This document shows, one piece after another, positions 2,899 through 62,483 of a stretch of DNA of 64,000 bases. The stretch is from Modestobacter sp. Leaf380 (GTDB lineage: Bacteria > Actinomycetota > Actinomycetes > Mycobacteriales > Geodermatophilaceae). Each line of letters begins with the position of its first letter. Within the stretch, counting starts at the first letter, position 1. The stretch is from the NCBI RefSeq assembly GCF_001424485.1, contig NZ_LMQC01000008.1, positions 1-64,000 on the forward strand, written 5' to 3'. Under the pieces are notes generated by a model. The model saw only the letters and a list, made by a program, of their open reading frames with translations, had not been told where the DNA came from and searched no databases. Made by a program: the position numbers and the translations under genes.

Positions 2899-4661
2899 GT
2901 CGGGTCCGGGTCGTTGGGCCCGTGCCGGGGGCCGGTCTCGGAGACCACGCCGTCGACCCCGGCGTAGGGCTCACGGCCCTTGTGGTGGCCGGCGTAGGCC
3001 TCGTCGTGCAGTCGCTGCTGCATCTCCGGGTGGTGCAGCTCGAACGCCGGGCGCTCCGAGCGGATCCGTGGGATCTGGGTGAAGTTGTGCCGCGGCGGCG
3101 GGGACGACGTCGCCCACTCCAGGGAGTTGCCGGCCCCCCACGGGTCGTCGCGCATGGCGAGCTGCCCGTGCAGCCAGGACTTCCGCAGGTTGTAGGCGAA
3201 GGGGAGCACGGAGGCCCCGAGGACGAACGAGCCCACCGTGGAGATCGTGTGCAGCACGGTGAACTGGTCGGTGCCCAGGTAGTCGGCGTACCGGCGCGGC
3301 ATGCCCTCGGCGCCCAGCCAGTGCTGCACCAGGAAGGTGGTGTGGAAGCCGATGAAGGTCAGCCAGAAGTGGACCTTGCCCAGTCGCTCGTCCATCATCC
3401 GGCCGCACATCTTGGGGAACCAGAAGTAAACGCCGGCGAAGGCCGCGAAGACGATCGTCCCGAAGAGCACGTAGTGGAAGTGGGCGACGACGAAGTAGCT
3501 GTCGTTGAGGTGTCAGTCCAGCGGCGGCGAGGCCAGCAGCACCCCGGTCAACCCGCCCAGCAGGAAGGTGACCAGGAAGCCGATGGAGAACAGCATCGGC
3601 GTCTCGAAGGTCAGCTGGCCGCGCCACATGGTGCCGATCCAGTTGAAGAACTTGATCCCGGTGGGGACGGCGATCAGGTAGGTCAGGAAAGCGAAGAACG
3701 GCAGCAGCACCTGGCCGGTGGCGTACATGTGGTGCGCCCAGACGGTGAAGGACAGGAACCCGATCGCGATGGTGGCCGCGATCATCCCCTTGTAGCCGAA
3801 GAGCGGCTTGCGGCTGAAGACCGGGATGACCTCGGTGACGATGCCGAAGAACGGCAGCGCCACGATGTAGACCTCGGGGTGGCCGAAGAACCAGAACAGG
3901 TGCTGCCACAGCATCGGGCCGCCGTTGGCCGGGCTGTACACCTGTGCCCCCAGGTGCCGGTCGGCCAGCAACGCCATGAGCGCCGCGGTGAGGATCGGGA
4001 ACGCGACGATGATCAGGATGCTGGTCACCAGGATGTTCCAGGTGAAGATCGGCATCCGGAACATCGTCATGCCCGGGGACCGCAGGCAGACCACGGTGGC
4101 GATCATGTTGACCCCGCCCAGGATCGTGCCCAGGCCGGAGACGGCGAGCCCGGCGATCCACAGGTTCGCGCCGGCACCGGGGGTGTGGGCGACGTCGTTG
4201 AGCGGGGCGTAGGCGTACCAGCCGAAGTCCGGTGCCCCGCCCGGGGTGATGATCCCGGCCATCACGATGAAGGCGCCGAAGAGGTACAGCCAGTAGGAGA
4301 ACGCGTTCAGCCGCGGGAAGGCGACGTCGGGCGCACCGATCTGCAGCGGCAGGACCAGGTTGGCGAACCCGAACACCAGCGGCGTCGCGAACAGCAGCAA
4401 CATGATCGTGCCGTGCATGGTGAACAGCTGGTTGTACTGCTCGTTGGACAGGAACTGCAGTCCTGGCCGCGCCAGCTCGCCCCGGATCAGCAGGGCCATG
4501 AACCCGCCGATGAGGAAGTACGCGAACGTGGTGGCCAGGTACATCAGGCCGATCGTCTTGTGGTCGGTCGACCGGATCAGGGCCAGGAAGCGTGAGCCTC
4601 GCGCGGCCGGCGGCTGCTCGGGCGGCCGGCTGACGACCGGCTGCGGGACGAGGGCGGTCAT
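2895..4661 (-). pseudogene. ctaD: Cytochrome c oxidase subunit I (aa3 type), interrupted by an in-frame UGA
   Basis: One continuous frame of 589 codons with a single internal TGA at 3513-3515. N-terminal part (residues 1-382): [16 protein letters not shown], the low-spin heme region [14 protein letters not shown], and the K-channel/CuB region [15 protein letters not shown] followed by WAHHMYATG. After the UGA it continues [19 protein letters not shown], with the heme a3 and heme a histidines (HFH), to a 190-residue end. The family usually has W or F where the UGA lies (...SPPLD-W/F-H...), so this looks like TGG to TGA. Without readthrough, helix X and two heme ligands are lost. No ctaC/ctaE neighbours, so probably a second, orphan copy. 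The 141 bases upstream (4662-4802) show no clear promoter. Confidence 0.85.
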
Positions 4662-8120: not shown

Positions 8121-8911
8121 TGGGCATGGCGGAGTCAGGGATCCTGGCGGGCAAGACGATCCTCGTGGCGGGTGTGCTGACCGAGGCGTCGATCGCCTTC
8201 TCGGTCGCGCGGATCGCGCAGGAGCAGGGCGCCACCGTCGTCCTGTCGAACTTCGGGCGGGCGCTGAGCCTGTGCCAGCGGATCGCCAAGCGGCTGCCGC
8301 AGGAGGCCGCCGTCGTCGAGCTCGACGTCACCGACACCGAGCACCTGGCCACCCTGGCCGAGCGCCTGAAGGCGGTGCTGCCCGAGGGCGCGCAGCTCGA
8401 CGGCGTCGTGCACTCCATCGGCTTCGCGCCGCAGGAGGCCATGGGCGACGGGTTCACCGAGGTCGCGTGGGAGCACGCCGCCACCGCCTTCCAGGTCTCG
8501 TCCTGGTCGCTGGCCTCGCTCACCCAGGCCTGCCGGCCGCTGTTCGGCGACACCGCCTCGGTGGTCGGGCTGACCTTCGACGCCACGGTCGCCTGGCCGG
8601 TCTACGGCTGGATGGGCGCGGCCAAGGCCGCGCTGGAGTCCACCTCCCGCTACCTGGCCCGCGAGCTGGGCCCCGAGGGCGTCCGGGTCAACCTGGTCGC
8701 CGCCGGCCCGCTGCGCACGATGGCCATGAAGTCCATCCCAGGCAGCAAGCAGTTCGAGGAGGCCTGGGAGGGCCGGGCGCCGCTGGGCTGGTCGGTCACC
8801 GACACCGAGCCCGCCGGCAAGTCCGTGGTGGCGCTGCTGTCGGACTGGTTCCCGGCGACGACGGGGGAGATCGTGCACGTCGACGGTGGCTTCCACGCCG
8901 TAGGCGTGTGA
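8120..8911 (+). CDS. inhA: Enoyl-ACP reductase (InhA/FabI type)
   Basis: A 263-residue NADH-dependent enoyl-ACP reductase, last step of the elongation cycle. Seen: LAGKTILVAGVLTEASIAFS (divergent SDR dinucleotide loop of FabI/InhA), VHSIGFAPQEAMG, and the active site VYGWMGAAKAALES with Tyr-x6-Lys, as in FabI enzymes. MKSIPGSKQFEEAW is the substrate loop, and the end GEIVHVDGGFHAVGV matches mycobacterial InhA. ATG 8120 overlaps the fabG stop. Confidence 0.93.
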
Positions 8912-8942
8912 TGTCACAGTCACGCGGTCGGGGACTCATCTG

Positions 8943-10073
8943 ATGCCGCAGGCACTCGACGTCGCGATCACCCCTGCCGGGCAGGCCCCGGACGAGGACC
9001 CCTCGCTCGCCGTCCGGAACAACGGGGGCGTCGACCCCTCGTCGGCCCCGGCGCCCGCGGGCCGCAGGGAGGCGGTGCTGTTGCTGTCCTTCGGTGGTCC
9101 CGAGGGCCCCGAGGACGTCATGCCGTTCCTGGAGAACGTCACCCGCGGCCGCGGCATCCCGCGGGAGCGGCTGCTCGACGTGCAGGAGCACTACCTGCAC
9201 TTCGGCGGCGTCAGCCCGATCAACGAGCAGAACCGGGAGCTGATCGCCGCCATCGAGGCGGACTTCGCGGCCAACGACCTGGACCTGCCGGTCTACTGGG
9301 GCAACCGCAACTGGGCGCCCTACGTCGAGGACGCCTGGGCGCAGATGGCCGCCGACGGCATCGAGCACGTCTACGTCTTCCCGACGTCGGCGTTCGCCTC
9401 GGCCTCGGGCTGCCGGCAGTACCACGAGGACGTCGCCCGGGCCCGTGCCGTGCACCGCAACGAGGCGCCGACGGCGGAGAAGATGCCGCACTACGGCGAC
9501 CACCCGGGCTTCGTGCGGGCCAACGCCGACGCGCTGCGCACGGCGCTGGAGTCGCTGCCGGCCGACGTGCGGGACACCGCACGGCTGGTGGCCACCGCGC
9601 ACTCCATCCCCGACGTGATGGCCGCGGTCGCCGGACCCGAGGGCGGGCAGTACCAGCGCGAGCTGCTGGCCTCGGCCCGCCTCGTCGTGGACGAGGTCGT
9701 GCCCGGCCGTGACTTCGACCTGGTCTGGCAGTCCCGCAGCGGACCGCCGTCGGTGCCGTGGCTGGAGCCCGACGTCAACGACCACCTGGAGGCGCTGGCC
9801 GCCGACGGGACGCGGGCGGTCGTGCTCTTCCCGGTGGGCTTCGTGTCCGACCACATCGAGGTCATCTGGGACCTGGACAACGAGGCCAAGGAGACCGCCG
9901 AGCGGCTGGACCTGGGCTTCGCCCGGGCCAGCACCGCCGGCACCCACCCCGGCTACGTGTCGATGGTGCGCGAGCTGGTGCTCGAGCGCCGCGGCGGCAG
10001 CGAGCCGCGGCTGGGCACGAACTGCCCGGCGGCGTGCTGCTACGTCGCCCGGCCGGCCCGCCGCCCGAGCTGA
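8943..10073 (+). CDS. cpfC: Coproporphyrin III ferrochelatase
   Basis: A 376-residue ferrochelatase. Actinobacteria use the coproporphyrin-dependent heme route, so the substrate is likely coproporphyrin III. Seen: LLLSFGGPEGPEDVMPFLEN, the family signature ATAHSIPDVMA (catalytic His), PVGFVSDHIEVIWDLDNEA and a C-terminal NCPAACCYVARPA that supplies clustered cysteines for the [2Fe-2S] centre found in actinobacterial enzymes. The first 40 residues are a low-complexity extension; an internal start is possible. Third gene of the fabG-inhA operon; 31 bases separate it from inhA. Confidence 0.92.
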   Translation: MPQALDVAITPAGQAPDEDPSLAVRNNGGVDPSSAPAPAGRREAVLLLSFGGPEGPEDVMPFLENVTRGRGIPRERLLDVQEHYLHFGGVSPINEQNRELIAAIEADFAANDLDLPVYWGNRNWAPYVEDAWAQMAADGIEHVYVFPTSAFASASGCRQYHEDVARARAVHRNEAPTAEKMPHYGDHPGFVRANADALRTALESLPADVRDTARLVATAHSIPDVMAAVAGPEGGQYQRELLASARLVVDEVVPGRDFDLVWQSRSGPPSVPWLEPDVNDHLEALAADGTRAVVLFPVGFVSDHIEVIWDLDNEAKETAERLDLGFARASTAGTHPGYVSMVRELVLERRGGSEPRLGTNCPAACCYVARPARRPS

Positions 10074-49837: not shown

Positions 49838-49869
49838 TCTGCCTGAGCAGATGCGCAGTCGTTGATGCG
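49838..49869. promoter_or_regulatory. Possible regulator site upstream of the transport operon
   Basis: Inverted repeat TCTGC-CTGA-GCAGA (49838-49851) followed by a direct repeat GATGCG (49850-49855 and 49864-49869, period 14). No known regulator consensus matches. Confidence 0.3.
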
Positions 49870-49888
49870 AACTCCTTGCAGTTAGGGT
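49862..49888 (+). promoter_or_regulatory. Promoter of the ABC/MFS operon
   Basis: TTGATG (49862-49867), 15-base spacer, TAGGGT (49883-49888). GAGGAG at 49905-49910 is the ribosome site for GTG 49919. Both promoter elements are visible here, unlike most promoters in the window. Confidence 0.5.
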
Positions 49889-49918: not shown

Positions 49919-50671
49919 GTGCTGCACGTGCACGACCTGACCGTCCGGGTCCCCGGCGGCCCCCTCGTGGACGGCGTCTCCTTCGCGGTGGCGCCCGGCG
50001 AGCGGGTCGGCGTCGTCGGCGCCTCCGGGGCCGGGAAGTCCCAGCTGGTCGCGGCCCTGCTCGGCCTGACGCCGCCCGGCCCGACGGTCAGCGGCAGCGT
50101 CCGGGTCGAGGGCACCGAGGTCGTGGGGGCGTCTGCCGCCGCCTGGCGCCCGCTGCGCGGCCGGGTCACCGCCCTGGTCGCCCAGGACCCGGGGACCGCG
50201 CTGGACCCGCTCACCCGGGTCGGCCGGCAGGTCGCCCTCCCGCTGCGTGCCCAGGGGGTGGCCCGCGGGGAGGCCCACACCCGGGCATGGGCGCTGCTGG
50301 CCGAGGTCGGTCTCGACGGGCTGGCCCGCCGGTACCCGGCGCAGCTGTCCGGTGGGCAGCGGCAGCGGGTGGCCCTCGCGCTGGCCCTGGTCGGCGCCCC
50401 GCGGCTGCTGGTCGCCGACGAGCCCACCTCGGCCCTGGACGTCACCGTGCAGGCCGGCGTGCTGGACCTGCTGGACCGGGTCACCGGCCCGGGGCTGGCG
50501 GCGCTGCTGCTGGTCACCCACGACCTCGCCGTCGCCACCCGGCTGTGCTCCCGGCTGCTGGTGCTCGAGGGCGGCCGGCTGGTCGCCGACGGGCCGGTCG
50601 CCGACGTGCTGGCCGATCCCCGGCTGGCCGACGTCGTCGCCGCGTCCCGGGCCCTGGCGGTGCACCGGTGA
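49919..50671 (+). CDS. Opp/Dpp-type ABC importer ATPase 1 (DppD-like)
   Basis: A 250-residue ABC ATPase: Walker A VGVVGASGAGKSQLVAALLG, Q-loop VAQDPGTALDPL, signature YPAQLSGGQRQRVALALALV, Walker B LLVADEPTSALDVT, H-loop LVTHDLAVATRL. It lacks the C-terminal oligopeptide/dipeptide extension with its Cys cluster, so it is shorter than DppD. First gene of a five-gene operon; its stop overlaps the next start (GTGA). Confidence 0.9.
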   Translation: MLHVHDLTVRVPGGPLVDGVSFAVAPGERVGVVGASGAGKSQLVAALLGLTPPGPTVSGSVRVEGTEVVGASAAAWRPLRGRVTALVAQDPGTALDPLTRVGRQVALPLRAQGVARGEAHTRAWALLAEVGLDGLARRYPAQLSGGQRQRVALALALVGAPRLLVADEPTSALDVTVQAGVLDLLDRVTGPGLAALLLVTHDLAVATRLCSRLLVLEGGRLVADGPVADVLADPRLADVVAASRALAVHR

Positions 50672-51438
50672 CTGCCCCGCTGCTCGTCGCCGAGGGCCTG
50701 GGCCGGCACTTCGACCGGTCCGCGGCCCCCGCGCTGGACGGCGTCTCGCTGCGCCTGCACCCCGGCGAGCGGCTGGCGGTGGTGGGGGAGTCCGGGTCGG
50801 GCAAGACCACCCTGGCCCGGCTGCTGCTCGCCCTGGAGACCCCCGACGCCGGCACCGTCACCCTCGCCGGCCGGCCGGTCCGTCCCGGGTCCCCGCGCTC
50901 GCTGCGCTGGTTCCGGCGGGCGGTGCAGACCGTGCCGCAGGACCCGGCCCGCTCCTTCCACCCCCGGATCCGGGTCGGGGACGCCGTCGCCGAACCGCTG
51001 GCGTGCCTGCGGGTGCCCGGCGACCACACCGCCCGGGTCGCGCAGCTGCTGGTCGCCGTGGGTCTGGAGCCCGATGCCGCCCGCCGGTGGCCGCACGAGT
51101 TCTCCGGCGGCCAGCGGCAGCGGCTGGCGATCGCCCGTGCGCTCGCCCCGCGCCCGCAGGTGCTGGTCGCCGACGAGCCGGTGAGCGCGCTGGACGTCGT
51201 CGTCCGGCTGCAGGTGGTCGACCTGCTGCGCGAGGTCAGCGAGGCCGAGGGCCTGGCCCTGCTCGTCGTCTCCCACGACCTGGGCGTGGTGCAGCACCTG
51301 GCGCACCGGGTGCTCGTCCTGGACGCCGGCCGGCCGGTCGAGGAGGGCCCGGTCGGGCAGGTGTTCGGGCACCCCGCCAGCCCGGTCACCGCCCGGCTGT
51401 TGGACGCCGTCCCGACGCTGGCGGAGGTGGGCTCGTGA
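50668..51438 (+). CDS. Opp/Dpp-type ABC importer ATPase 2 (DppF-like)
   Basis: A 256-residue ATPase: Walker A VVGESGSGKTTLARLLLALE, Q-loop TVPQDPARSFHPR, signature WPHEFSGGQRQRLAIARALA, Walker B VLVADEPVSALDVV, H-loop VVSHDLGVVQHL. Pairs with the upstream ATPase to energise the fused permease at 54196-55917. GTG 50668 and GTGA overlaps at both ends. Confidence 0.9.
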   Translation: MTAPLLVAEGLGRHFDRSAAPALDGVSLRLHPGERLAVVGESGSGKTTLARLLLALETPDAGTVTLAGRPVRPGSPRSLRWFRRAVQTVPQDPARSFHPRIRVGDAVAEPLACLRVPGDHTARVAQLLVAVGLEPDAARRWPHEFSGGQRQRLAIARALAPRPQVLVADEPVSALDVVVRLQVVDLLREVSEAEGLALLVVSHDLGVVQHLAHRVLVLDAGRPVEEGPVGQVFGHPASPVTARLLDAVPTLAEVGS

Positions 51439-52718
51439 CCCGGGCCGGGCGCGGGTGGGCGCCGTGGGTGCTGGTCCGCCGGCTGCCCGCCGTCCCGCGG
51501 TTGCTGCTGGCCTCCCAGCTCGCCTTCAACATCGGCTTCTACCTGGTCGTGCCGTTCCTGGCGGTGCACCTGAGCGAGGACCTCGCGCTGGCCGGCGGCG
51601 TCATCGGGCTGGTGCTGGGCATCCGCACCTTCAGCCAGCAGGGCCTGTTCTTCCTCGGTGGCGGGCTGGCCGACCGGTTCGGCGTCAAGCCGGTCGTGGT
51701 CGTCGGCTGCGTCATCCGGATCGCCGGCTTCCTCGTGCTCGCGGTGGTGCAGAGCCTGCCCGGGGTGCTGCTGGGTGCCGTGCTCGTCGGGTTCGCCGCC
51801 GCGCTGTTCTCCCCGGCCGTGGAGTCCGCGCTGGCCGACCAGGGCCGCCAGCTGGAGGAGGCCGGCGTCGCCACCCGGGCCGAGGTGTTCGGACTCGACG
51901 CGATCGCCTCCAAGCTCGGCTCGGTCACCGGCCCGGTGCTCGGTGCGCTGCTGCTCGCCGTCCCGTTCGGGGTCACCTGCGTGGTGGCCGCCGGGGTCTT
52001 CGTCGTCGTCCTGGTCGCGCACCTGGTGCTGCTGCCCCGGGACCTGCGCACCGGCGTCGGCGAGGTCGAGCCGATGACCGCGGGCTGGGGCCAGGTGCTC
52101 CGCAACCGGCGCTTCCTGGCCTTCACCGTCTGCTACTGCACCTACCTGCTGTCCTACAACCAGCTGTACCTGGCCCTGCCGGTCGAGCTGACCCGGGCCA
52201 CCGGCGGCCAGGGCGCGCTGGGCTGGCTGTTCGTACTGGCCGCGGTCAGCGTCCTGGCCTTCCAGCTGCCGGTCACCGCCCGGGCCCGCCGCGCCGGGGC
52301 CCGCCGGGCGCTGCCGCTGGGCTTCGCGCTGATGAGCGCCGGGTTCCTGCTGGTCGCCGTGCTGGCCCCGCTGGCCCCGGCCGACGGCGTGCTGGCCCTC
52401 GCCCCGGCCGTCGGGTTCGTGCTGCTGCTCTACACCGGCCAGATGATCGCCGTCCCCGTCGCCCAGGACCTGGTGCCCCGGCTGGCCGGCGAGCGCCGGC
52501 TCGGCGCCCACTTCGGGGTGCTGGCCTCGGCCGGCGGGCTGGCCGTGCTCGTCGGCAGCACCGGGATCGGTGCGCTGCTCGACCTCGCCGAGACCCCGCA
52601 GCCGGCGGCCGCCGTCCCCTGGCTGGTGCTCGCCGCACTGCCCGCGGCCTCCGCCGTCGGCCTCCTCCTGCTCACCCGCCGCATCGTCCCCGCCCCCCAG
52701 CCCGTAGGAGCCCCGTGA
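51435..52718 (+). CDS. MFS transporter inside the ABC operon
   Basis: A 427-residue 12-helix transporter: LAFNIGFYLVVPFLAVHLSE (helix 1), FFLGGGLADRFGVKPVVVVG (loop 2-3), NRRFLAFTVCYCTYLLSYNQ (helix 7). It resembles the EntS/MdtH-like exporters. Placed between the importer ATPases and the binding protein with GTGA overlaps on both sides, it should be made in fixed proportion to the importer. The same gene set occurs in opine-metallophore (staphylopine, CntE-CntABCDF) systems. Direction of transport is inferred. Confidence 0.85.
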   Translation: MTRAGRGWAPWVLVRRLPAVPRLLLASQLAFNIGFYLVVPFLAVHLSEDLALAGGVIGLVLGIRTFSQQGLFFLGGGLADRFGVKPVVVVGCVIRIAGFLVLAVVQSLPGVLLGAVLVGFAAALFSPAVESALADQGRQLEEAGVATRAEVFGLDAIASKLGSVTGPVLGALLLAVPFGVTCVVAAGVFVVVLVAHLVLLPRDLRTGVGEVEPMTAGWGQVLRNRRFLAFTVCYCTYLLSYNQLYLALPVELTRATGGQGALGWLFVLAAVSVLAFQLPVTARARRAGARRALPLGFALMSAGFLLVAVLAPLAPADGVLALAPAVGFVLLLYTGQMIAVPVAQDLVPRLAGERRLGAHFGVLASAGGLAVLVGSTGIGALLDLAETPQPAAAVPWLVLAALPAASAVGLLLLTRRIVPAPQPVGAP

Positions 52719-54199
52719 AGCGCCGCACCGCCCTGCTCGCCGCCCCGGTCGTCCTGCTCGGCGGCTGCTTCTCCGGCAGCGGTGACGCCGGTGCTGACGG
52801 CGCCGACCGGATCCGGCTGGCGCTGGCCTTCCCGCCGGTGGCCGCGCTCTCGCCGTGGACCGACGACGCCGTGCTGCTGACCCGGATGGGGGCCGCGGAG
52901 AGCCTCGTCGTCTTCGACGCCTCGGGCACCGCGCAGCCCCAGCTCGCCACCTCCTGGGAGTCCGTCGACGAGCGGACCGCGCTGGTAGACCTGCGCGCGG
53001 ACGTGGTCTTCCACGACGGCACCCCGATGGACGCCGAGGCCGTCGCCGGGTCGCTCAACGCCGCCGCCGCGGCCGCCGACCCGCCGCTGCGGGTGCTCGC
53101 CGGTGTCGGCCTGACCGCCACCGCGGTCGACGAGGACACCGTCCAGGTGCAGGCCGCACAGGCCGACCCGCTGCTGGTGCAGCGGCTGGGCGCCCCGGCG
53201 CTGGTGGTGCTGTCCCCGGCGGCCTACACCGACGGTGCCGCCCCCGACCCGGTCGGTCACGGCACCGGCCCCTACGCGATCACCGCCGTGCAGGGCGCCG
53301 AGTCGGCCACGCTGGACGCGGCCACCGGGTACTGGGACGGCACCCCGGCCGCCGACGGGGTGGACGTCCGCTTCGTCGACGACGCCGGCGCGCGTGCCGC
53401 CGCGCTGCGCGCCGGTGAGCTCGACGTCGTCCAGGGCATCCCGATCGCCCAGCTGGCGACCCTCTCCGACGACGAGCGCGTGGTGACGACGTCGCTGCCG
53501 CGGGTCACCGCGCTCTCGCTGAACACCGCCTCCGGCGTCTTCACCGACCCGGGCCTGCGGGCCGCCGCGGTGGCCGCCGTGGACCCCGGCCCGGTGGTGG
53601 ACGGCGTCTTCGAGGGGCAGGCCGACGAGGCCCCCGGCCTGCTCACCGACGCGACCCTCGGCGCCGCCGCCCGCCCCGCACCCTCGCTGCCGGCCGCGGC
53701 CGACCCGGCCGGGGCGTCGATCCGGCTGGCCACCTACGACGACCGGCCCGAGCTGCCCGAGGCCGCCGCGGTGCTCGCCGAGCAGCTGCGCGGTGCCGGG
53801 TTCACCGTCGAGGTGGTCGTGCAGACCTATGCCACCCTGGAGCCCGACCTGCTCGCCGGTGCCTTCGACGCGGTGCTGGGCAGCCGGCTCACCCTGCTGG
53901 ACACCGGTGACCCGATCGGCTACTTCGGCACCGACCACACCTGCGAGGGCGGCTACAACCTCGCGCGGCTGTGCGACCCCGCCGTCGATGCCGCGGTGGC
54001 CGCCGCCGGGGAGCTGACCGACCCGGTCGCGCGCCGGCAGGCCGCCGCCGACCTGGAGGCCGCGGTGCTCTCCACCGGGGCGGTCGTGCCGGTGCTGCAC
54101 GAGCAGAGCCGGACCGGGGTGGCCCAGGCCGTGCAGGGCGTGGGGGAGGACCCCTTCGAGCGGCAGGTCGTCACCGTCGCCACCACGACCGGCCGGTGA
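52715..54199 (+). CDS. ABC importer solute-binding lipoprotein (SBP family 5)
   Basis: A 494-residue lipoprotein with lipobox LGGC (Cys 18). Family-5 features: VFHDGTPMDAEAVAGSLNAA, GHGTGPYAITAVQGAESATL, and GTDHTCEGGYNLARLCDPAV near the end. It is shorter than most dipeptide-binding proteins (about 530). Nickel, opine-metal or peptide ligands are possible. GTG 52715 overlaps the MFS stop; TGA overlaps the permease start. Confidence 0.87.
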   Translation: MKRRTALLAAPVVLLGGCFSGSGDAGADGADRIRLALAFPPVAALSPWTDDAVLLTRMGAAESLVVFDASGTAQPQLATSWESVDERTALVDLRADVVFHDGTPMDAEAVAGSLNAAAAAADPPLRVLAGVGLTATAVDEDTVQVQAAQADPLLVQRLGAPALVVLSPAAYTDGAAPDPVGHGTGPYAITAVQGAESATLDAATGYWDGTPAADGVDVRFVDDAGARAAALRAGELDVVQGIPIAQLATLSDDERVVTTSLPRVTALSLNTASGVFTDPGLRAAAVAAVDPGPVVDGVFEGQADEAPGLLTDATLGAAARPAPSLPAAADPAGASIRLATYDDRPELPEAAAVLAEQLRGAGFTVEVVVQTYATLEPDLLAGAFDAVLGSRLTLLDTGDPIGYFGTDHTCEGGYNLARLCDPAVDAAVAAAGELTDPVARRQAAADLEAAVLSTGAVVPVLHEQSRTGVAQAVQGVGEDPFERQVVTVATTTGR

Positions 54200-55917
54200 C
54201 GCCGGTCCTCTCCCGGCTCACCCGCCCGCTCGGCGTCCTCGGCGCCCTGGTCGGCGCCGCACTGCTGGTCGGTGCGCTGCCCTGGTTGTCCGGGGACGAC
54301 CCGGCGCTGGGCGTGCTCCGGGCCCGGGAGGTCGACCGAACCGCCGACCCGGCGGCCCTGGCGGCCGTCCGCGACCGGCTGGACCTGCCGGCCGACCCGG
54401 TCACCGGCACCCTGGGCTTCCTCGGCCGGCTGGTCACCGGCGACCTGGGCACCTCCTGGGTGTCGGGTGCACCGGTTGCGGACACCCTGCTGCCGGCCCT
54501 CGGCGTCTCGCTCACCGTCGCCGGCACCGCCAGCCTGGTCGCTCTCGTCCTCGCGGTGCTGCTCACCGTGCCCGCCCTGCTGCGGGCCGCCGACGGACGG
54601 CTCACCGGGGGCGGCGCGGGGGCCGCGGTGGGCGGCGCACTCGCGGCGCTGCCCGAGTTCGTGCTGGCTGTCCTGCTGGTGTCGGTGGTCGCCGTGGGCT
54701 GGGGCCTGCTGCCCACCTCGGGCTTCACCGGGCCGGCGAACCTGGTGCTGCCCGTGCTGGCCCTCGGCGTCCCCGCGGCCGGGGTGCTCGCCCGGCTGCT
54801 GGCGGGGGCGGTGGCCGCGGTCGCGGGGGAGTCCTGGGTGCGCACCTGGCGGGCCGCGGGGGTGCGGCGCGGGGCGGTGGTGACGGCGCTGGGCCGGCGG
54901 GCGCTGAGCGTCGTCGTCCCGCAGGTGTTGCTGCTGCTGGTCGGCACCCTCGGCGCGGCCGCGGTGGTGGAGGCGGTCTTCGACCTGCCCGGCCTGGGCG
55001 GGCTCGCGCTGGACGCCGCGCTCGTGCCCGACGTGCCGGTCGTGCAGGCCGCCGTGGTGCTGCTCGTGGGCCTCGGGCTGCTCGTGGGGGGCGGCGGCGT
55101 GCTCGCCCACCGGCTGCTGCTGGGCCCGGCACTGACCGGCAGCGGGTTGACCCCCGAGGTCGTGCCCGCCGGACGGCGTCCCCGGCGCGCGGCGCTCGCC
55201 GTCGCCACGGTGCTCGCCCTGGCCGTGCTGGCCGGGCTGCTGCGCGACCCGGCGGCGCAGGACGTCGGCGCCCGGCTGGCGGCACCGTCCTGGGCGCACC
55301 CGTTCGGCGCCGACCCGCTGGGCCGGGACGTGCTGGCCCGGTTCGGGCACGGTGCGCTGGTCTCGGTGGGCCTCGCCGTGGCACTGGCCGCTGTCGCGCT
55401 GGCGGTCGGGCTGGCCGTCGGACTGCTCGGGCGCGCGGACCGGACCGGGACCGCGGACGTGCTCAACGCGCTGCCCGCCGTCGTCGTCGGCATCGTCGTC
55501 GCCGCGGTGGCCGGACCGGGACTGCTGTCGGCCTGCCTGGCCGTCGCCCTGGTGGCCTGGATCCCGCTGGCGGTGCACACCCGCACGCTCGCCGCACAGG
55601 CCCGGGCGTCGGGCTTCCACGTCGCCGCGGTGACCGGGGGAGCCGGGCACTGGCACTTGCTGCGCCGGCACCTGCTGCCCGTCGTCGGCCCCCCGGTCGT
55701 GCGGCACGCGCTGGTGCGCGTGCCGCACGCCGCACTGGCGCTGGCCGGGCTGTCGTTCCTCGGCCTGGGAGCCGGCGCGGAGTCCCCGGAGTGGGGACGG
55801 GCACTGGCCGAGACCACCGGCTACCTGGAGCGCGCGCCCTGGGTGGTCGCGGCACCGGCGCTCGGGCTGGTGCTGCTGGGTGTGGTCGCGGCGCTGTCAG
55901 ACCCGCGCCCGCAGTGA
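54196..55917 (+). CDS. Fused DppB-DppC-type ABC permease
   Basis: A 573-residue protein joining two permeases normally encoded separately. First half (residues 1-300): LDLPADPVTGTLGFLGRLVT (DppB-like periplasmic region), EAA loop VRTWRAAGVRRGAVVTALGR. Second half from about residue 330: HPFGADPLGRDVLARFGHGA (the DppC N-terminal motif), then EAA loop ASGFHVAAVTGGAGHWHLLR-RHLLP. About 11-12 membrane segments. No ribosome site or stop lies between the halves. Its end overlaps the convergent MFS gene by 21 bases. Confidence 0.88.
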   Translation: MTPVLSRLTRPLGVLGALVGAALLVGALPWLSGDDPALGVLRAREVDRTADPAALAAVRDRLDLPADPVTGTLGFLGRLVTGDLGTSWVSGAPVADTLLPALGVSLTVAGTASLVALVLAVLLTVPALLRAADGRLTGGGAGAAVGGALAALPEFVLAVLLVSVVAVGWGLLPTSGFTGPANLVLPVLALGVPAAGVLARLLAGAVAAVAGESWVRTWRAAGVRRGAVVTALGRRALSVVVPQVLLLLVGTLGAAAVVEAVFDLPGLGGLALDAALVPDVPVVQAAVVLLVGLGLLVGGGGVLAHRLLLGPALTGSGLTPEVVPAGRRPRRAALAVATVLALAVLAGLLRDPAAQDVGARLAAPSWAHPFGADPLGRDVLARFGHGALVSVGLAVALAAVALAVGLAVGLLGRADRTGTADVLNALPAVVVGIVVAAVAGPGLLSACLAVALVAWIPLAVHTRTLAAQARASGFHVAAVTGGAGHWHLLRRHLLPVVGPPVVRHALVRVPHAALALAGLSFLGLGAGAESPEWGRALAETTGYLERAPWVVAAPALGLVLLGVVAALSDPRPQ

Positions 55918-57090
55918 CCGGCCCAGCACCAGCACCAGCACCCCGGCCAGCACCACCGACAGCAGCGCCACCCGCAGGCTGAGCACGTCGGAGACGAACC
56001 CGATCAGCGGCGGGGACACCAGGAACCCGATCCGCAGCAGCAGGTTGACCGCGGTCAGCCCGACCCCGGTGGGCAGGCCGGGCAGCGCGTCGGCGGCGGC
56101 GTAGACCGCGGGCACCAGCGTCGCCACGCCCAGCCCGGCGAGGGCGAACCCGACCACCGTCGTGGGCACCGACGGCAGCGCCAGCGTGAGGACGAAGCCG
56201 GCGGCGATGACCGCGCCGCCGACCCGGGCGACCCGGCGCTGGCCGAACCGGTCCACCACCCGGTCCCCGGTGAGCCGCCCGGCCGTCATCGCGACCTGGA
56301 AGGCCACGAACCCCAGCCCCGCGGTGACGACGGTGGCGCCCAGGTCGTCGCGCAGCCAGATGGCGCTCCACGAGGCCGCGGAGTCCTCCACGAACGCGGC
56401 GCCGGCGGCCAGCAGCCCGAGCACCACCAGCGCCCCGACGGCCGACCGGCGGGCACTGCGCACCCCGGCGACCGGTGGTGCCGCCTCGGTGGGTGTGGCG
56501 TCGACGTCGTCCCGGCCGGGGAGCATCCAGGCCCGGATCAGCACGGCGACGACGCCGAAGACCACCGCCGAGACGCCCAGGTGCACCTCCAGCGGAACGC
56601 CCAGCCCGGCGATGCCGGCACCGAGCAGGCCGCCGGCCACCGCGCCCAGGCTCCAGAACCCGTGCAGCGCGTTGAGGATCGACCGGCCGTAGCCGCGCTG
56701 CACCCGCAGCCCGTGCGCGTTCTGGGCGACGTCGACGATCGCGTCCAGGGCGCCGACCAGCAGCAGCGCCAGGGCCAGTACCCACCACGCGGGTGCCGCG
56801 GCCGCACCGGCCACGCCGACGCCCAGGCCCAGCAGCCCCAGTGACGCCACCGGTCCCGATCCCAGCCGGGCGATGAGCACCGCGGCGACCGGGCCGACGA
56901 CCAGGGCACCGAGCGGGGCGGCGGCCAGCGCCGTCCCCAGGGCCGCGTTGGACAGGCCGAGCTCGTCACGCAGCTCGGGCAGCCGGGGCACCAGGTTGGC
57001 GTAGAAGACGGCGTTGAGGGCGAAGCAGGCCGCGACCGCTACCCGGGCGTGCTGCAGCGCCCGGGTGGGGGTGGTGACGGCGGCGCTCAC
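55897..57090 (-). CDS. MFS transporter of a TetR-controlled operon
   Basis: A 397-residue 12-helix transporter: AVAACFALNAVFYANLVPRL, DELGLSNAALGTALAAAPLG, ALDAIVDVAQNAHGLRVQRG, YGRSILNALHGFWSLGAVAG and DRVVDRFGQRRVARVGGAV. The QNAHG...LNALHGFWSLG pattern is typical of the FucP/NNP-like sugar or drug MFS subgroup. GTG 57090 overlaps the TetR stop (GTGA), so it is co-translated. Confidence 0.83.
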   Translation of the reverse strand: MSAAVTTPTRALQHARVAVAACFALNAVFYANLVPRLPELRDELGLSNAALGTALAAAPLGALVVGPVAAVLIARLGSGPVASLGLLGLGVGVAGAAAAPAWWVLALALLLVGALDAIVDVAQNAHGLRVQRGYGRSILNALHGFWSLGAVAGGLLGAGIAGLGVPLEVHLGVSAVVFGVVAVLIRAWMLPGRDDVDATPTEAAPPVAGVRSARRSAVGALVVLGLLAAGAAFVEDSAASWSAIWLRDDLGATVVTAGLGFVAFQVAMTAGRLTGDRVVDRFGQRRVARVGGAVIAAGFVLTLALPSVPTTVVGFALAGLGVATLVPAVYAAADALPGLPTGVGLTAVNLLLRIGFLVSPPLIGFVSDVLSLRVALLSVVLAGVLVLVLGRSLRARV

Positions 57091-57647
57091 GGGGTGAGCT
57101 CCAGGACGCGGGCCAGCACGGTGCGGGTCTCCTCGGGGGTGGGCGGGGCGGTGGTGAGGATCGCGTGCATGGTCAGGCCCTCCATGACGCCGTCCAGGGC
57201 GCGGGCGAGCTCGGGGTCCAGGACCCGGCCCAGGCTCTCGCGGCTGCTGTGCATCCAGGCCTCGGTGACCTCGCGCAGCGCCGGCTCGCGGAGGGCGGCC
57301 AGGTAGAGCTCGTAGGCCACCGCCCAGTCGCGCGGGGTGGCGCAGTGCCCGTCGTGCACGAAGTCCACGGCGGCGTCCAGCATCGAGGCGCGGTCGGTGG
57401 CCCGGGCGAAGTGCGCCCGGAACCGGACGGCCATCTGCTCGGCGTGCCGGGTGAACGCGGCCCGCAGCAGGTCGGCGAGGCCGTCGAAGTGGTAGGTCAC
57501 CGAGCCCAGCGGGACGTCGGCGGCCGCGGCGATCCGCCGGGCGGTGGTGCCGGCCACCCCGTGCTCGGCGATCACGTCGATGGTGACGTCGACGAGCCGG
57601 TCCCGGCGGTCGGGGTCGACGCGGCGGGTCACCGGCGCGGTGGTCAC
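57087..57647 (-). CDS. TetR-family regulator
   Basis: A 186-residue repressor. HTH: DRLVDVTIDVIAEHGVAGTT, ARRIAAAADVPLGSVTYHFD. The ligand domain (ADLLRAAFTRHAEQMAVRFR) is Glu/Arg rich. GTG 57647 overlaps the stop of the acetyltransferase gene (GTGA). Expected to control the operon containing itself and the MFS gene. Confidence 0.88.
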   Translation of the reverse strand: MTTAPVTRRVDPDRRDRLVDVTIDVIAEHGVAGTTARRIAAAADVPLGSVTYHFDGLADLLRAAFTRHAEQMAVRFRAHFARATDRASMLDAAVDFVHDGHCATPRDWAVAYELYLAALREPALREVTEAWMHSSRESLGRVLDPELARALDGVMEGLTMHAILTTAPPTPEETRTVLARVLELTP

Positions 57648-58231
57648 TCCGACGTGCCGATGTGCCGGACGACGCGGGCCGGGTTGCCCACGGCGACGAC
57701 GCCGGCCGGCAGGTCCCGGGTGACGACGGAGCCGGCCCCGACGACGGTGTCCCGCCCGACGGTGACCCCGGGCAGCACGACGACGCCGCCGCCGAGCCAG
57801 ACGTTGTCCCCCAGGGTGATCGGGGCCGACCCCTCCCACTTGTCCCGCCGCGGGCCGGGCTCCACCGGGTGGGTGGCGGTGAGCAGCTGGACGTTCGGGC
57901 CGATCTGGACGTCGTCGCCGATGGTGATCCGGCCGACGTCGAGGGCGACCAGGCCCCAGTTGGCGAAGGTCCGGGCACCGACGGTGGTCTGGTACCCGTA
58001 GTCGCAGTGGAACGGGGCGCGGATGGTGCTGCCGGGCCCGAAGGCGCCGAGCAGGTCCTCCAGCAGGGCGCGCCGGGCGGCGCCGTCCAGCGGGTCGATC
58101 GCGTTGTACTGCATCGTCAGCCGCTGGGCGCGGCCGTTCTCCTGGGTGAGCACCGGGTCGTCGGCGACGTAGGCGTCGCCGGCCAGCATGCGCTCGCGCA
58201 TCGTGCGGGGGTCGTCGTCTCGGGCGGTCAC
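57644..58231 (-). CDS. maa: Maltose/galactoside O-acetyltransferase family
   Basis: A 195-residue left-handed beta-helix acetyltransferase using acetyl-CoA: MRERMLAGDAYVADDPVLTQ, MQYNAIDPLDGAARRALLED, IRAPFHCDYGYQTTVGARTF, TATHPVEPGPRRDKWEGSAP (catalytic His) and NVWLGGGVVVLPGVTVGRDT. Likely acetylates sugars. GTG 58231 has TAGGGT 7 bases upstream. First gene of maa-tetR-MFS. Confidence 0.9.
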   Translation of the reverse strand: MTARDDDPRTMRERMLAGDAYVADDPVLTQENGRAQRLTMQYNAIDPLDGAARRALLEDLLGAFGPGSTIRAPFHCDYGYQTTVGARTFANWGLVALDVGRITIGDDVQIGPNVQLLTATHPVEPGPRRDKWEGSAPITLGDNVWLGGGVVVLPGVTVGRDTVVGAGSVVTRDLPAGVVAVGNPARVVRHIGTSE

Positions 58232-58238
58232 GGCGGGG

Positions 58239-58244
58239 ACCCTA
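58239..58244 (-). promoter_or_regulatory. Leaderless -10 element for the maa-tetR-MFS operon
   Basis: Minus strand TAGGGT, 7 bases before GTG 58231. The palindrome 58253-58270 begins 9 bases further and would overlap its -35. Confidence 0.45.
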
Positions 58245-58252
58245 GCCGACGA

Positions 58253-58270
58253 TGTGTACGTACGTACACA
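58253..58270. promoter_or_regulatory. 18-base palindromic operator
   Basis: TGTGTACGTACGTACACA is a perfect palindrome in the gap between the divergent maa and tetR genes. Its size and symmetry fit a TetR operator. It lies between the two -10 elements, so one repressor could silence both. Confidence 0.7.
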
Positions 58271-58291
58271 ACAACGCGCCGTCCCGCCTGG

Positions 58292-58297
58292 GAGACT
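58292..58297 (+). promoter_or_regulatory. Leaderless -10 element for the second tetR gene
   Basis: GAGACT-GCCGGG-GTG(58304). Confidence 0.35.
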
Positions 58298-58303
58298 GCC
58301 GGG

Positions 58304-62483
<4,180 letters not shown>

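Follow-up and report, generated by a model that had tools for sequence, protein, structure and literature searches.

A five-gene importer-exporter operon behind a Nur-like box in Modestobacter sp. Leaf380: a candidate nickel-starvation system with an unlinked acetyltransferase

Background

Why would a bacterium place an exporter gene inside an Opp-type importer operon, and which substrate would the two handle? The question is raised by five genes at 49919-55917 on contig NZ_LMQC01000008.1 of Modestobacter sp. Leaf380, within the window, i.e. the whole 64,000-nucleotide stretch of DNA that was analysed. In this operon the gene for a transporter of the major facilitator superfamily (MFS) stands between two ATPase genes and the genes for a solute-binding protein (SBP) and a single-chain permease. 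We propose, with a probability of a little under 60%, that the operon would serve under nickel starvation to import and export a small organic ligand of nickel, and that a GNAT acetyltransferase encoded on another contig would make or modify this ligand. For the origin of the system, derivation from zinc-type modules is the best reading of the sequences. In the counts given below the source genome was grouped with Klenkia, as we infer its affiliation to be.

Operon architecture and conservation

The operon comprises the following genes:

49919-50671, forward strand: ATP-binding cassette (ABC) ATPase of the OppD/NikD type (family scan; Walker A, SGGQRQR and Walker B motifs)
50668-51438, forward strand: ABC ATPase of the OppF/NikE type (family scan; same ATPase motifs; GTGA overlap)
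51435-52718, forward strand: predicted MFS exporter (MFS_1), MdtH-like far below the cut-off of that model (GTGA overlap)
52715-54199, forward strand: family-5 solute-binding lipoprotein (SBP_bac_5; signal peptide, LGGC lipobox by eye; GTGA overlap)
54196-55917, forward strand: fused OppB-OppC (NikB-NikC-like) permease, 573 amino acids (BPD_transp_1; GTGA overlap)

Open frames and family scans agree with the original prediction, which had described two Opp-type ATPases, an MFS exporter, a lipoprotein and a fused permease joined by GTGA; this is the overlap sequence at all four junctions. The prediction had also stated that biosynthetic genes are missing nearby, and the neighbourhood indeed contains none. 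The permease fusion is real, because residues 10-291 match OppB/NikB-type models and residues 350-564 match OppC/NikC-type models; by eye, each half has an EAA-type loop.

Since the gene order is conserved in other genera, the operon is not a chance arrangement. The order ATPase-ATPase-MFS-SBP-permease was found in Klenkia, Modestobacter, Blastococcus saxobsidens, Allosalinactinospora, Allonocardiopsis, Saccharopolyspora sp. HNM0983 and Austwickia, as well as in loci L128, L133, L144 and L147, and the order SBP-permease-ATPase-ATPase-MFS in L142, L143, L145 and L146. Operons without the ATPases occur as GNAT-MFS-SBP-permease in three Saccharopolyspora (L076, L078, L079) and, in six genomes of g35, a genus with large genomes, as GNAT-SBP-permease-MFS (L136-L141). 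At L134, GNAT and MFS genes are divergent neighbours, and neither SBP nor permease was found nearby. When the unique loci with all five genes were compared after eight duplicate records had been dropped, the MFS gene was the one most similar to its window counterpart, or tied (3 ties), in 16 of 17, the exception being Austwickia (L081). Gene order changes among 20 further MFS loci (L128-L147), yet 18 of them, all but L130 and L134, have SBP and permease genes of this family within the same sequence stretch.

A putative Nur-type operator

Two features precede the first gene:

49865-49881, forward strand: putative Nur-box-like operator ATGCGA-ACTCC-TTGCAG, with 37 bases between box end and first start codon
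49882-49888, forward strand: TTAGGGT directly 3' of the box, identical in 7/8 Klenkia loci (TTGGGGT in the remnant L064), possibly a promoter -10 region

Excerpts of PMC3919588 give the Nur-box consensus as tTGCaa-N5-ttGCAA. The window box matches 9 of its 12 letters and is the sole Nur-type site in the 64 kb window at up to 3 mismatches. The half-sites TGCGA-N5-TYGCAGT are kept in 7/7 intact Klenkia operons and in L064 while the spacer varies; the Modestobacter half-sites TGCRA-N5-TTGCAA are kept in 6/6. The remnant itself (genome G045, 4010-4474) is a deletion product in which the start of the first ATPase gene is joined to the end of the permease gene. Scanning 25 Geodermatophilaceae loci (406,574 bases) at up to 3 mismatches gave 13 Nur-type sites, some overlapping, in 11 loci; all are intergenic and lie 5' of these operons, between two divergent operons or before the lone MFS gene of L061. 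In the latter locus (genome G025, 8756-10066) the rest of the operon is gone, and the MFS gene is divergent from an MFS-less paralogous operon, with the Nur-type site in the shared intergenic region.

Among 38 operon loci, 20 of 33 Nur-type sites fell within the 1.8% of bases just 5' of the operon. Fifty permuted palindromes gave on average 1.3 sites inside this region and 25.0 outside (1.3 of 26.3), and the best permutation reached 8 loci vs 18 observed. This count covers loci with a clear operon start; it left out L129, L130, L131, L132, L134, L135, L148, L150-L153, L156, L157 and the remnant L064, and also the op2 loci, which lack the MFS gene, the Kineosporia, Saccharothrix and metagenome-assembled genome loci (L077, L082-L084, L087-L091) and eight duplicate records. 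Early box patterns such as TGCRA-N5-TYGCA were written after the sites had been seen; the consensus strings of the mismatch scans are the published ones. At up to 2 mismatches the Nur consensus occurs at 5 places in the source genome (reversed control 4), none of them at the operon or, as judged by eye, at a gene with a plausible role in nickel use. No known RNA, riboswitches included, was found in the window at gathering scores.

The source genome encodes three Fur-family proteins. One is nearest to 3mwm, which we take to be Zur, and to the zinc regulator FurB (2o03); the gene of another adjoins, by eye, a catalase-peroxidase-like gene. The remaining one, encoded at L044:1429-1899, is closest to 3eyy (1.2e-30; next match 7.4e-13), which is Nur of S. 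coelicolor according to excerpts of PMC7055735. Its gene adjoins one read by eye as ygfZ, and a ygfZ-type gene is a reported neighbour of nur (excerpts of PMC4531530).

An unlinked GNAT gene under the same kind of box

A search profile was built from the GNAT proteins encoded beside these transport genes in other genera. In the source genome it gave one strong match (183 bits, next 32), on another contig. At E <= 1e-20 the GNAT gene was found in 8/9 Klenkia genomes, the ninth genome being 73% complete, and in 0/48 other genomes of the family. The gene start carries a Nur-type site with 2-3 mismatches in 7/8 Klenkia copies; the box of the eighth (G045, the genome that holds the operon remnant) has 4 mismatches and is the weakest of the eight. 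All 11 partly overlapping Nur-type sites in the 28,049 bases of these loci fall at the GNAT start.

Among the loci examined (E <= 1e-15), members of this GNAT family were found only beside the MFS gene in L076, L078, L079 and L134 (= L104), within the MFS operon in L136-L141, in Klenkia genomes and on one plasmid of Rhodococcus; none lies in the Zur-type neighbourhoods examined. The plasmid copy (L170, Rhodococcus opacus B4 pROB01) is a distant relative, 40.6% identical to that of L138, and is encoded directly 3' of a cation diffusion facilitator gene. When presence of GNAT was compared with Nur-type control on the MFS tree described below, four independent pairs were obtained, of which on average 3.4 changed the same way and 0 the opposite way, too few for significance.

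In six Modestobacter loci (L051, L052, L053, L054, L073, L085) a TauD/TfdA-type dioxygenase gene heads the Nur-box operon in the place of GNAT. The assignment comes from Pfam on the L051 copy, to which the other five are 77-98% identical. This dioxygenase was not found in the source genome by a search run without a positive control.

Zur-type boxes on relatives

The S. coelicolor Zur consensus is TGAAAATGATTTTCA (excerpts of PMC2823685). In the 38 operon loci, the upstream region holds 15 of the 22 Zur-type sites; 26 permutations gave on average 0.19 sites inside and 0.04 outside, the best of them reaching 5 loci vs 13 observed. When the boxes are placed on a tree of 51 MFS proteins, those of the Nur type fall on Klenkia together with Modestobacter, the three Saccharopolyspora (sister to Zur-type L080), g35 (sister to Zur-type L142, L143, L145 and L146) and L134. 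The fewest changes between Nur and Zur on this tree are 4, or 3 if g35 is left unlabelled or labelled Zur, or 2 if g35 is labelled Zur and L134 omitted. One labelling has 15 Zur rows, five of them set by eye (L068, L129, L133, L135, L147), a stricter one, with those five unlabelled, 24 Nur, 10 Zur and 17 unlabelled rows of 51, and both need 4 changes; five Nur rows (L048, L049, L050, L140, L141) rest on 4-mismatch boxes aligned with the boxes of sister species. No clear box of either kind precedes the genes in Blastococcus L068, Austwickia L081, Allonocardiopsis L086 or L133.

An MFS-less paralogous operon, 48-58% identical, lies in the source genome itself (L007, 9440-14388), adjoining TIGR03943 and ArsP_1 permease genes. 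The palindrome at its start, which we take for a zinc-type box, was found by a pattern written after seeing it and has more than 3 mismatches to the published Zur string. It contains an ATG that may be the start of the first gene (leaderless). In Modestobacter L051 the counterpart of this operon adjoins an operon for a zinc transporter of AztC/AztB (ZnuA/ZnuB) type that scores below the cut-offs of those models. In the intergenic region between the Nur-box operon of L051 and this divergent paralogue, a zinc-type site lies 13 bases from the first gene of the paralogue; L052-L054 have such a site at 4 mismatches. The fused permease was found nearly whole at at least 70% identity in 11 of 57 family genomes, the source genome counted. 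Being widespread and common to the MFS-less paralogue, it is therefore not specific to this operon.

Relationships of the transport proteins

Nik-type models are among the best matches of the importer parts, all below cut-off (NF045468, 166 vs 600; TIGR02294, 94.6 vs 393). The SBP structure was modelled (mean pLDDT 92) and compared by Foldseek. Among the 50 matches listed, ranks 1-3 (3t66, 4xkr, 3rqt) are nickel-binding proteins. Rank 1 is from Bacillus halodurans; ranks 2 and 3 are from S. aureus and, judged from sequence alignments, the same protein. Below them, NikA is mixed with glutathione, peptide and other proteins of family 5. The modelled fold thus resembles that of nickel-binding proteins, a fold also common to dipeptide binders lower in the list. 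The nearest solved relatives of the SBP bind nickel complexes. The metal-linked, coupled importer-exporter suggested originally is supported.

For the MFS protein the best NCBIfam match is a multidrug pump model, with a score far under its cut-off. In its sister clade (38-42% identical), a gene for a pyridoxal phosphate (PLP) enzyme is adjacent to the MFS gene or one gene off in 9/9 loci. Three of these loci, L149, L154 and L157, have operons with genes for an ATP-grasp ligase, a DUF364 protein, a PLP enzyme, an enolase-type enzyme, the MFS protein, a methyltransferase and Opp importer parts; a Zur-type site lies 46 bases upstream of the first gene in L154 and 265 bases in L149, and each operon is a candidate zincophore gene cluster. 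Given the PLP enzyme and the synthesis-like genes, the MFS protein would most naturally export a chelator that resembles an amino acid.

Further arrangements were seen. In L148, L150, L151, L152, L153 and L156 the PLP enzyme gene directly adjoins the MFS gene. In L129 (8482-9765) a gene for a PepSY-TM protein lies directly 5' of the MFS gene, and a zinc-type site is near the MFS start. In Kineosporia babensis (L082, 603-6820) a nonribosomal peptide synthetase-like gene, two phytoene-desaturase-like oxidoreductase genes and a dehydrogenase-like gene, the first and last read by eye, are found directly 5' of the genes for an SBP and a fused permease of this family; they are possible ligand synthesis genes.

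By eye, the window operon is flanked on one side by infC-rpmI-rplT and an rRNA methyltransferase gene and on the other by four other genes and then pheS-pheT. The genes 3' of it (55897-58942) are, also by eye, a convergent second MFS gene, two TetR-like regulators and a maltose-acetyltransferase-like gene; similar-sized genes follow in other Klenkia.

Proposed mechanism and alternative explanations

In the mechanism that we propose, nickel-loaded Nur would bind the box at 49865-49881 and block the promoter, and nickel shortage would lead to a single transcript for the whole operon. Lipoprotein, single-chain permease and the two ATPases would then import nickel on a small organic ligand that the MFS protein would export. 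The unlinked GNAT gene has a box of this kind too, and its product is the probable enzyme for making or modifying the ligand. A more specific version, which we hold only tentatively, is a minimal nickelophore system: the Nur-controlled acetyltransferase would make a secreted nickel ligand from a common metabolite, the MFS protein would export it, and lipoprotein and permease would re-import the complex, the whole having arisen more than once by re-wiring of Zur-controlled modules to nickel and recruitment of GNAT.

Several observations weigh against this interpretation. The window box deviates from the consensus at 3 of 12 letters and three intact Klenkia boxes at 4. The 4.76 Mb genome has 2 matches to the pattern TGCRA-N5-TYGCA, the second inside a gene of L040, and the reversed control likewise gives 2; the pattern by itself is thus not sufficiently rare, and it is conservation that carries the argument. 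A divergent gene lies about 60-110 bases from the GNAT box in Klenkia and could be the one that the box serves. The structural matches of the GNAT protein are generic and include many GNATs, among them polyamine and N-terminal acetyltransferases, and Modestobacter, with its TauD-type dioxygenase, has no GNAT match. In g35, Zur-like sites stand beside Nur-like ones in 5/6 operons. In three operons they lie 156-192 bases upstream, with a divergent gene close by in L137 and L139; in L138 (2 mismatches) and L141 (4 mismatches) they lie between GNAT and SBP. With both kinds of site present, the metal assignment is not clean in this genus, and zinc and nickel control may coexist.

Among other explanations, a scavenging or recycling shuttle is possible but doubtful. 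Nickel would enter on a ligand from neighbouring cells (or on free amino acids), the metal would be removed inside, and the MFS protein would expel the empty ligand with or without acetylation by GNAT, all without own synthesis. The lack of adjacent biosynthetic genes and of PF10100 in the genome fits such a shuttle, and a ligand might bind metal less tightly once a donor amine is acetylated. However, GNAT heads the operon in two other groups, as expected of a ligand handled inside the cell as a fixed part of the system, and the sister-clade MFS genes lie near a PLP enzyme gene throughout, three of them in the longer synthesis-like operons. We regard as unlikely a plain importer, e.g. of nickel-histidine, combined with an unrelated MFS metal or drug efflux pump. 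SBP and permease are indeed nearest to NikA-, NikB- and NikC-type models, and the best model match of the MFS protein is a multidrug pump, but a nickel efflux pump induced by nickel shortage would make little sense. Moreover, the MFS protein is the best-conserved member, SBP and permease genes accompany it at most of the further loci, and in L061 it is retained beside a Nur-like box without the rest of the operon. An importer of peptides or opines as nutrients with a drug exporter, the box belonging to another regulator, appears improbable. Family-5 SBPs often bind peptides, and peptide binders occur lower in the fold list; yet the nickel-type fold stands on top, the geometry of the box is that of the published Nur consensus, the box recurs on the unlinked GNAT gene, and relatives carry zinc-type boxes.

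The likeness to staphylopine systems, emphasized in the original prediction, extends to the presence of Opp-type importer and MFS parts and does not extend to kinship. PF10100, the opine dehydrogenase CntM, was not found in the source genome, although the same search recovered it in one of 296 genomes of the class (G305, 7.4e-196). For CntL, PF03059 had no match in the source genome and did match in M. acetivorans; as the gene beside CntM in L155 is also unmatched, this model may miss bacterial CntL. The SBP reached 69.6 bits vs the CntA cut-off of 800, and 5yh5 and its kin, presumably CntA structures, are not among the 50 fold matches listed. The MFS protein has no real similarity (E = 0.07) to that of the opine locus of G305, an actinobacterial opine MFS and not CntE of S. 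aureus. Since PF10100 was not found and the MFS proteins are unlike, we rejected a staphylopine-type opine metallophore system without local biosynthesis genes as very improbable, even though the transport parts are of the same kinds as in the cnt layout and in excerpts of PMC7438024.

Comparison with known systems

Secreted iron and zinc ligands are well documented. No description of a dedicated secreted ligand under a nickel sensor was found by listing searches of the literature or in the excerpts of PMC6103462 that were covered. If the proposed interpretation holds, the change between Zur- and Nur-type boxes offers an inexpensive clue to the metal for which a transport module is used. The acetyltransferase, encoded far from the operon but with a box of the same kind, is then a specific candidate for the ligand enzyme; a large actinobacterial family of fused Opp permeases would also be tied to metal supply.

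NikABCDE-type importers under Nur (Streptomyces coelicolor; excerpts of PMC4531530 and PMC7055735) resemble the window operon in the Opp-type importer, the NikA-like SBP fold, the Nur-type operator and a nur homologue beside a ygfZ-like gene. They differ in that the window operon has a fused permease, an MFS gene inside the operon, a GNAT partner and scores far under the curated Nik cut-offs. Opine zincophore systems of the staphylopine type (Cnt) likewise combine an Opp-type importer with an MFS exporter, and some Cnt-type clusters hold acetyltransferases (excerpts of PMC7438024). Unlike these, the window operon has no opine dehydrogenase, an unrelated MFS protein, a different binding protein and a nickel-type instead of a zinc-type operator. 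The Zur-controlled metallophore clusters of actinomycetes for ethylenediamine disuccinate (EDDS) and coelibactin (excerpts of PMC6103462) share control of ligand and transport genes by a metal sensor, and relatives of the window operon are often Zur-boxed, whereas the operon itself has a Nur-type box and no adjacent synthesis cluster. The operons of L149, L154 and L157 have an MFS protein 39-41% identical to that of the window, Opp importer parts and, in L149 and L154, a Zur-type box; they differ in their synthesis-like genes, a separately encoded permease half (L149, L154) and zinc-type control.

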